A stretch of 36,227 bases of DNA from a virus. The notes under the pieces were generated by a model. That model was not told where the DNA came from. It searched no databases and saw only the letters and a list, made by a program, of their open reading frames with translations. Where the stretch lies: IMG/VR virus record IMGVR_UViG_3300044641_002125, positions 1-36,227 of that record; one strand, written 5' to 3'. The position numbers and the translations under genes were made by a program. Positions 3,245 to 36,227 of this stretch are shown here, in pieces; within the stretch, counting starts at the first letter, position 1; every line of letters begins with the position of its first letter.

Positions 3245-3290
3245 ATGGGTGTTGAGGGTCCAAACCTCAAGTAAATCCTACCCCTCCCAT
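3245..3290 (+). ncRNA. Hairpin leader or small structured RNA upstream of tRNA-Arg
   Basis: From the predicted +1 of the promoter at 3210, ATGGG (3245-3249) pairs with CCCAT (3286-3290). Within it TTGAGG (3252-3257) pairs with CCTCAA (3265-3270) over a 7-nt loop. It has no T-arm, so it is not a tRNA. It may be a processed leader of the tRNA-Arg transcript or a small RNA. Confidence 0.35.
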
Positions 3291-3324
3291 GCCTCTCACA
3301 GAAGCACAAACAGGGAGGTCTCTT

Positions 3325-25467: not shown

Positions 25468-26139
25468 ATGACCCTAGATCTTCATAACTTTTTTAAATTT
25501 TATGATGATGGTAATGCGAATCACGTAGCAGCGGTTCAATGGTTAGAGGATAACCTACCTGCTCAATTTTTAGATGATGCGGAGACTGACTGGATTGGAA
25601 TGTTCAGAACGAAACCACCAACTCCAGAAGTTCTTGCAGTTCCATACTTCAATCAAGTAGATAACTACAGAGATGCACATAGAACTTGTAACAGTTCATC
25701 GTGCGCTATGTGCCTTGCTTTCCTCAAGCCAGGAAGCATCAAAGGCGACGATGAATATGTCAAGAAAGTATTTGCGATTGGTGACACTACTGACCATGCG
25801 GTTCAGACGAAAGTTCTGGCAGGTTATGGAATTAAGTCACACTTTAGTTACAATCTTTCTTTTGCTGACATTGATAAGAGTCTTGATGCTGGGAAACCTG
25901 TTGTTATTGGTATCCTGCATCGCGGTTCTTTATCTGCACCTACTGGTGGGCACATGTGTGTTGTAATCGGTAAGACTCCAGATGGAAAGGGATATTACAT
26001 TAACGATCCATATGGTTCACTCAACGATAACTATACTGGACCCGTAACGAATGGTAAGAAAACCATTTACACCAAAGCAGTTCTCAAACATCGTTGGTGC
26101 CCAGGAGGAAATGATGGGTGGGGAAGGATCTTCGACTGA
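25468..26139 (+). CDS. C39-like cysteine peptidase with shared N-terminal module, 223 aa
   Basis: Residues 1-48 (LDLHNFFKFYDDGNANHV, then AVQWLEDNLPAQFLDD) are a module also found at the start of the endolysin at 26247. The rest is a peptidase C39-like 2 domain: VPYFNQVDNYRDAHRTCN with the candidate catalytic Cys in the following SSSCAMCLAF, then GGHMCVVIG (His) and YYINDPYG (Asp). It could cleave peptide cross-links in peptidoglycan or bind as an inactive peptidase fold. Driven by the late promoter at 25436. Confidence 0.82.
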   Translation: MTLDLHNFFKFYDDGNANHVAAVQWLEDNLPAQFLDDAETDWIGMFRTKPPTPEVLAVPYFNQVDNYRDAHRTCNSSSCAMCLAFLKPGSIKGDDEYVKKVFAIGDTTDHAVQTKVLAGYGIKSHFSYNLSFADIDKSLDAGKPVVIGILHRGSLSAPTGGHMCVVIGKTPDGKGYYINDPYGSLNDNYTGPVTNGKKTIYTKAVLKHRWCPGGNDGWGRIFD

Positions 26140-26260
26140 GTTTAAAAAAAAGATTCTGGAAGAAGTGAAGAAACTCACAAATCAAGGTAAACATAAAGAA
26201 GCAAGTGAATTATTCGATATATACTTTCCAAATATAGGAGGCAACAATGGCAAGAATTGA
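26114..26260 (+). CDS. Small charged helical protein, 48 aa
   Basis: Begins MGGEGSSTEFKKKILEEVKK, then a helical segment (KEASELFDIYF). AGGAGG lies five bases before ATG 26114. The gene overlaps the peptidase gene by 26 bp and the endolysin by 14 bp. Located between two cell-wall enzymes, it could be an accessory protein, but nothing identifies the role. Confidence 0.6.
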   Translation: MGGEGSSTEFKKKILEEVKKLTNQGKHKEASELFDIYFPNIGGNNGKN

Positions 26261-26924
26261 CCTGCACAACTTCTTCAAGTTTTATGACGAGAAGAACCCT
26301 AACCACGTTAAAGCAGTACAGTGGTTAGAAGATAATCTCCCAGTCAAATATCTAGAGGATAACATTGATTGGGCGGAGATTTATCGCGGAAAAAAGACTA
26401 GTGCTGCACCAGCCCCTGCCGCTGCTGCAGCTCCCTCTGCCCCAGTAGCAGGTGGTGATGATGTACCGCAAATGGGCATTAAGTTAATTAAAGAGTTTGA
26501 AGGATGCCATCTAAAGGCATATCCTGACCCTTTGACTGGTGGACTTCCAATCACAATCGGTTGGGGTTCTACCCGTAAGAAGGATGGTTCAGCATTCAAA
26601 CTTGGTGATACACTTACTCAACAAGAAGCTGATGAACTCTTAATTGAACAATGTAAAAAAGAGTTTCTCCCAGCACTTCGTAAAATTCCACATTGGGGAG
26701 AAATGTCTGATGGAAAAAGAGGCGCTCTGCTCAGCTTTGCTTATAATCTTGGCGCTGGTTTCTACGGCGGTGATAACTTTAATACTATTACTAAACGCTT
26801 GAAGAATAAAGAGTGGGACTTAGTTCCCGATGCGCTTTACCTCTACAGAAATCCTGGTTCAAATGTAGAAGCAGGACTAGCACGTAGAAGAAAAGCAGAA
26901 GGTGAAGCTTGGAAAAAAGGTTAA
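26247..26924 (+). CDS. T4-lysozyme-type (GH24) endolysin with N-terminal module, 225 aa
   Basis: Residues 1-47 repeat the module of the C39-like peptidase. A Pro/Ala-rich linker (residues 52-70) leads to a GH24 domain: LIKEFEGCHLKAYPD gives catalytic E85 and D94 with T4-lysozyme spacing, and PITIGWGSTR carries T103. It hydrolyses the glycan strands of peptidoglycan. The ribosome-binding site GGAGGC lies just before the ATG. The module probably targets the cell wall or a partner protein. Confidence 0.9.
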   Translation: MARIDLHNFFKFYDEKNPNHVKAVQWLEDNLPVKYLEDNIDWAEIYRGKKTSAAPAPAAAAAPSAPVAGGDDVPQMGIKLIKEFEGCHLKAYPDPLTGGLPITIGWGSTRKKDGSAFKLGDTLTQQEADELLIEQCKKEFLPALRKIPHWGEMSDGKRGALLSFAYNLGAGFYGGDNFNTITKRLKNKEWDLVPDALYLYRNPGSNVEAGLARRRKAEGEAWKKG

Positions 26925-35248: not shown

Positions 35249-35282
35249 TTGACACGGGTAAGAAACCGTAGTATGATAAATA
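35249..35282 (+). promoter_or_regulatory. psbA: Composite early/late promoter of psbA
   Basis: TTGACA (35249-35254) and TATGAT (35272-35277) with a 17-bp spacer form a near-consensus sigma70 promoter. GATAAATA (35275-35282), a T4-type late motif, overlaps the -10. Both would start transcription within a few bases of 35284-35288, about 160 nt before psbA. The -35 lies 5 bp after the stop of the 1061-aa gene. Confidence 0.75.
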
Positions 35283-35290
35283 GGTAAACA

Positions 35291-35322
35291 AATGTTACGA
35301 ATTTCTCACAATTCTTAACATT
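35291..35322 (+). promoter_or_regulatory. Long hairpin at the 5' end of the psbA leader
   Basis: AATGTTA (35291-35297) pairs with TAACATT (35316-35322), and GAATT (35299-35303) with AATTC (35310-35314), with one mismatch between. The 12-bp stem lies just after the predicted transcription start and would stabilise the psbA mRNA 5' end. Confidence 0.6.
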
Positions 35323-35330
35323 GTCAAACA

Positions 35331-35435
35331 CCCCGCAAACCGAGACCTCTAGGGTGTATAAATTACGTCTCTCATATCCCCGCTAAGGGTGCGGGGAGCA
35401 TAGTATCTCCACCATTTCCCTGATGGTCTTACTAT
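35331..35435 (+). promoter_or_regulatory. Structured psbA leader with alternative pairing
   Basis: CCCCGC occurs twice (35331-35336, 35378-35383) and both copies can pair with GCGGGG (35391-35396). GAGAC (35342-35346) pairs with GTCTC further on. ATAGTA/TACTAT (35400-35405/35430-35435) encloses ACCAT/ATGGT just before psbA. A conditional structure controlling psbA translation or termination is possible. Confidence 0.45.
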
Positions 35436-35448
35436 CCTTTTTAGAAAA

Positions 35449-36227
35449 ATGACTGCTACACTTTCACGTCAACAATCACAATCAAATATTTGGGAACAGT
35501 TTTGTAACTGGGTAACTTCAACAGACAACCGCCTCTATGTGGGTTGGTTCGGCGTTCTGATGATTCCTTGCCTGCTTGCTGCTACAACTTGTTTCATCAT
35601 CGCATTCATCGGTGCTCCCCCTGTGGACATTGATGGTATCCGTGAACCCGTTGCTGGTTCACTCATGTACGGAAACAACATCATCTCTGGTGCTGTTATT
35701 CCTTCGTCCAACGCTATTGGACTGCACTTTTACCCCATCTGGGAAGCTGCTTCCCTAGATGAGTGGCTTTACAACGGTGGTCCCTTCCAATTGGTAGTGT
35801 TCCACTTCCTTATTGGTATCTACGCTTATATGGGTCGTGAATGGGAACTTTCTTATCGTCTTGGGATGCGTCCTTGGATCTGTGTTGCTTACTCCGCTCC
35901 TGTTGCTGCTGCTTCTGCGGTGTTCCTTGTTTATCCTTTCGGTCAAGGTTCCTTCTCTGATGCAATGCCTCTTGGAATCTCAGGCACGTTTAACTACATG
36001 CTCGTCTTCCAAGCAGAACACAATATCCTTATGCATCCGTTCCACATGCTTGGGGTTGCTGGGGTATTTGGTGGCTCTCTGTTTAGTGCTATGCACGGAA
36101 GTCTGGTTACGTCTTCCCTTGTCCGCGAAACGACAGAGCAAGAGTCTCAGAACTATGGTTACAAGTTTGGACAAGAAGAAGAAACCTACAATATTGTAGC
36201 TGCTCACGGTTATTTTGGTCGCCTTAT
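35449..36227 (+). CDS. psbA: Photosystem II D1 protein, N-terminal 259 codons (partial)
   Basis: [20 protein letters not shown] opens a standard D1 protein; the frame is open to the window edge without a break, so no group I intron is present up to codon 259. Membrane helices are visible, for example [20 protein letters not shown] and [27 protein letters not shown] carries the His that binds the non-haem iron and QB site. Phage D1 keeps photosystem II repaired during infection as host synthesis declines. Ribosome-binding site is weak (TAGAAAA). The C-terminal processing site lies outside the window. Confidence 0.97.

Follow-up and report, generated by a model that had tools for sequence, protein, structure and literature searches.

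A candidate fused sigma70/gp55 promoter at psbA and other auxiliary genes of T4-like cyanophages

The psbA locus, its promoter motifs and its leader

The window (the whole stretch of DNA analyzed here, 36,227 nt) is a 36-kb linear virus record that resembles part of a T4-like cyanophage. It holds a tRNA cluster, wcaG and PhotoRC-II RNAs, genes for a phosphate-binding protein, glycosyltransferases and an endolysin, and, at its end, psbA. The psbA gene (35449..36225, on the plus strand, as are the promoter and leader features below) is truncated by the window end, and the D1 protein it encodes is 98.5% identical to that of phage DSL-LC03. We did not see gp55 in the 36-kb window, itself a fragment; S-PM2 and P-HM2 encode both gp55 and gp33. 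The endolysin-like gene looks split: of two adjacent ORFs, the one at 25468-26139 corresponds to the first half of a single PHROG (3617, with endolysin-like matches) and the one at 26247-26924 to the second. Within the tRNA cluster, positions 3283-3319 give a 44-bit match to the abiF RNA (RF03085), for which the gathering score is 37.

Upstream of psbA, an exact -35 hexamer, TTGACA (35249..35254), is followed by a 17-nt spacer (35255..35271) and a -10 hexamer, TATGAT (35272..35277). A T4-type late octamer, GATAAATA, occupies 35275..35282. A preliminary description had claimed that TTGACA-17-TATGAT overlaps this octamer with 35275-35277 in common, and that is correct to the base. Judged by a host-like criterion (TTGACA, 16-18 nt, TATAAT-like), the site matches sigma70 at 11 of 12 bases with a 17-nt spacer, and GATAAATA conforms to the late-promoter pattern NATAAATA. 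The -35, the -10 and the Gp55 site lie within one block 5' of the gene, as in the composite psbA promoter of cyanomyoviruses. The spacer is mostly unconserved among relatives; its 3' end is often TGN (an extended -10) in relatives and is TAG in the window. The octamer is like that of the T4 late promoter (TATAAATA, read with gp55), except that any first base is accepted, as in S-PM2. Unlike a T4 late promoter, the psbA site comes with a -35, and its distance to the start codon is 174 bp instead of about 30-60.

From the spacing to the -10 and the late octamer, both polymerase forms are predicted to start within 35283..35288, where GGTAAACAAAT is conserved in most relatives; the transcript start would fall at about 35284-35288. 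The transcript probably opens with a hairpin predicted by folding at 35288..35324, followed by PhotoRC-II (RF01717, PMC2864571) at 35316..35411. The latter is a full-length match (82.6 bits against a gathering score of 39), and we noted no difference from the described RNA. In most relatives, a comparable hairpin of different sequence comes after the promoter (mean z of -2.1 over 55 promoters). Covariation was weak in the GGTAAACAAATG group, with one pair showing a double change, so the support for the 5' hairpin comes from folding energy and from different sequences folding alike. In S-PM2 the leader hairpin is a long, almost perfect stem and is probably the inverted repeat described in PMC5931967. 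A third leader stem, CCATTTCCCTGATGG, lies between PhotoRC-II and the start codon at 35410-35436. In relatives, the stem at this place differs in sequence and its loop is rich in C (GTTCGTCCCCCCGAAC, CCAGTACCCCCTGG), a pattern that resembles compensatory change in a part not covered by the Rfam model.

Conservation and controls

Taken singly, neither motif stands out in the window: GATAAATA was found once against 2.6 expected, and a loose scan for sigma70-like sites gave 17 against 17.3. The composite TTGAC-N16..19-TANN[A/C]TAAATA was found once against 0.005 expected from 200 order-2 Markov resamples, and we rejected a chance overlap of motifs on that basis. The same pattern occurred twice in S-PM2 (0.025 expected) and three times in P-HM2 (0 expected), and a reversed control pattern matched once in 44 records, against 64 real composite sites. 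The window has 13 N[A/C]TAAATA octamers, and a 6/6 -35 at 17 nt accompanies only the one at psbA. The idea that the late octamer is enriched as a word across whole genomes was also rejected: overall it occurs no more often than the Markov model predicts, which leaves its position as the evidence. Separately, TTGACN-17-TANNNT sites numbered 13 in the window against 1.7 expected, which indicates that host-like promoters are plentiful in its auxiliary-gene region.

We gathered 80 viral psbA loci by protein similarity. Leaving out 4 that were too short and 14 that were T7-like (12 called by capsid-assembly genes adjoining psbA, L069 and L078 by upstream sequence) gave 62 evaluable loci. The exact composite was present in 50 of these and the TANNCTAAATA form, TA[T/C][A/G]CTAAATA, in 6, making 56/62 when the second octamer base may be A or C. 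In the other 6, and in the isolate P-RSM6, either the late half or the entire composite is missing; a few psbA promoters have the sigma70 pair alone.

The TANNCTAAATA form uses a late-motif variant seen at capsid genes. That variant, NCTAAATA, lies 33-48 bp 5' of gp23, vrlC, gp4 and a gp12 gene in S-PM2 and of gp18 and gp20 in P-HM2, all of which are missing NATAAATA. Judged by this position, it is a genuine late variant. The view that it is a broken late motif was rejected, since it is found at capsid and tail genes. A C at the fifth -10 base would therefore suit both readers, which would explain why the psbA promoters of S-SM1 and S-ShM2 have the TATACTAAATA form.

We then aligned 55 dereplicated psbA promoters, picked by TTGA, a spacer of 17 and a -10 match, so that TTGA (invariant by selection) and the -10 bases are conserved by construction. 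The AAATA tail was not a criterion, and each of its bases is kept in 53-54 of the 55. The C of the -35 is kept in 54/55, and most spacer and upstream positions are near-random. About 83 pairs of TTGAC and late motif occur across the psbA loci; in 68 of them the distance is 26 nt, and the remaining pairs scatter. The conserved block runs past AAATA to GGTAAACAAAT. Because conservation extends to these bases 3' of AAATA, some of it may reflect a role in the transcript.

Other genes of S-PM2 and P-HM2 provide natural controls. Structural genes (gp25, gp8, gp22 and others) have NATAAATA, and none has a TTGAC -35. Replication-type genes (gp55, gp45, gp61, mazG), plus hli, have TTGACA-17-TANNNT without an overlapping late octamer. 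Both elements occur at psbA in the two phages and at psbD in S-PM2. The composite is absent from gp55-free contexts: it was found at 0/14 T7-like psbA loci and in none of 5 T7-like genomes, and at 0/31 picocyanobacterial psbA genes. T7-like cyanophages have a different late system. We rejected the composite as a general psbA feature of all cyanophages because the T7-like loci are without it, and a captured host psbA promoter because NATAAATA is absent from the 31 picocyanobacterial genes, whose -35s are weak at best.

We consider it likely, from the arrangement and distribution of the motifs, that the site is a fused promoter read by the host sigma70 polymerase and then by the gp55 polymerase. 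The site might instead be a sigma70 promoter only, with AAATA kept for promoter melting or for the transcript start. The continuation of the block to GGTAAACAAAT, the variants that read TATACTAAATA and the few sigma70-only psbA promoters are points in its favor. However, AAATA follows only 5 of the 65 TTGACN-17-TANNNT sites in the S-PM2 and P-HM2 genomes, all 5 of them composite, and the TATACTAAATA variants still match the late variant of capsid genes. Together with the tandem promoters described below, these points make the sigma70-only explanation unlikely. We think it more improbable still that one modified polymerase, for example host sigma with a phage co-activator, needs both elements as a single promoter class. 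The register fixed at 26 nt and the uniformity of the promoter over many loci would fit such an enzyme, but sharing NAT between the -10 and the octamer would impose the same register, and each half occurs alone 5' of other genes. To our knowledge, no phage co-activator requiring both elements has been described.

The same site at other genes

Searches of whole genomes yielded 12 composite sites across 9 cyanomyovirus genomes. Of 30 virus records, mostly psbA-bearing, 29 contained composite sites, 52 in all, and the reversed pattern matched once; some records are near-duplicates (e.g., G067 and G068), so these counts are not independent. An open scan of viruses for the composite pattern was left out of the fractions because unrelated viruses were mixed in. 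Targets besides psbA are psbD, OprB/SLH porin genes, the gene for a cyanophage outer-membrane protein (PF24653), a petE-PTOX operon (S-SM1) and CP12-cpeT (S-ShM2). The gene 3' of the site was annotated for 24 of the 52 (13 psbD, 7 porin, 2 outer-membrane protein, 1 psbA and 1 unknown).

For psbD, 10 of 29 loci have their own composite. Inspection showed most of these to be loci with psbD away from psbA; where psbD closely follows psbA, it has no composite of its own. The psbD composites (G065:33104, G067:61484, G069:129984; e.g., L381, L384, L386) differ from those of psbA in that the spacer between the -35 and the -10 is conserved and contains a TGTTAAG-like direct repeat; this repeat is possibly an activator site. 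Among well-aligned porin genes, 7/9 have the composite. At several unfused Phage_OMP/porin genes (L419, L420, L424, L411), the late and the sigma70 promoter are separate and arranged in tandem. This suggests selection for dual control itself and argues against a role for sigma70 only.

Recurrence also bears on whether the block was simply inherited with psbA from one ancestor and has no current dual function. Although psbA leaders are alignable among T4-like cyanophages, the elements are retained between diverged spacers and flanks, the same fused site stands at unrelated genes, and host psbA genes are without it. We regard this explanation as very improbable. Somewhat short of an even call, and put forward tentatively, is the proposal that fused sigma70/gp55 promoters define a small regulon (psbA, psbD distant from psbA, OprB/SLH porin, Phage_OMP, petE-PTOX and CP12-cpeT). 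Its members would be those genes whose expression has to persist across the change from middle to late transcription, in contrast to replication genes with sigma70 sites only and virion genes with late sites only.

Timing, earlier work and meaning

We infer dual use, polymerase identity, timing and start sites from sequence. As proposed, host RNA polymerase with its primary sigma would read TTGACA-17-TATGAT, probably in the middle phase. After the onset of replication, the late polymerase (gp55, gp33 and the gp45 clamp) would read GATAAATA. The start sites of the two forms would lie only a few bases apart and the leader would be identical, so psbA would stay expressed when middle switches to late.

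The preliminary description had proposed a host sigma70 early promoter superimposed on a gp55-type late one. Its dual character agrees with the conservation of both elements and with the controls (structural and replication genes, T7-like phages and host genes). The sigma70 half is probably "middle" rather than "early", because host-like promoters precede replication-type genes and because expression of the auxiliary genes of P-HM2 is confined to the middle cluster (PMC5082946). Since P-HM2 psbA itself peaks with middle genes only (PMC5082946), a strong late contribution is not established. In S-PM2, the rise in psbA transcript under high light is most pronounced late in infection (PMC5931967). 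This fits a late contribution, short of proof. In Syn9, the 2016 study of Doron et al. reportedly found a separate element at early genes and host-like promoters at middle genes.

A dual promoter for psbA is already published. The 2018 study of S-PM2d (PMC5931967) described the same gene, -35 and -10, noted that the -10 motif 5' of cyanomyovirus psbA also contains a Gp55 site, and inferred early and late expression. That work concerned psbA only and called the sigma70 half early; here we add counts over whole genomes, controls without gp55, the NCTAAATA variant and sites at other genes. The notion of overlapping early and late promoters in T4-like phages goes back further; it was put forward for RB49 and proposed for S-PM2 and Syn9 (PMC2984593), with sigma70-type and late promoters 5' of one gene as seen here. 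They were thought to replace MotA-type middle promoters (PMC2984593). That proposal concerned homologs of T4 middle genes, whereas the fused site here marks psbA, psbD and envelope genes, and the replication genes that we checked in S-PM2 and P-HM2 had none. Its presence at other auxiliary genes is new here, as far as a non-exhaustive literature search could find.

Because viral psbA ranks among the most common photosynthesis genes in the ocean, the means by which it stays expressed while the phage takes over the cell is relevant to the energetics of infection. The fused promoter offers a one-site, mutable explanation for sustained psbA expression. Its signature at psbD, porin and electron-transport genes would serve as a sequence rule predicting which auxiliary genes stay on late, and that rule is testable on existing time-course RNA-seq from S-PM2, P-HM2, P-SSM2 and Syn9.
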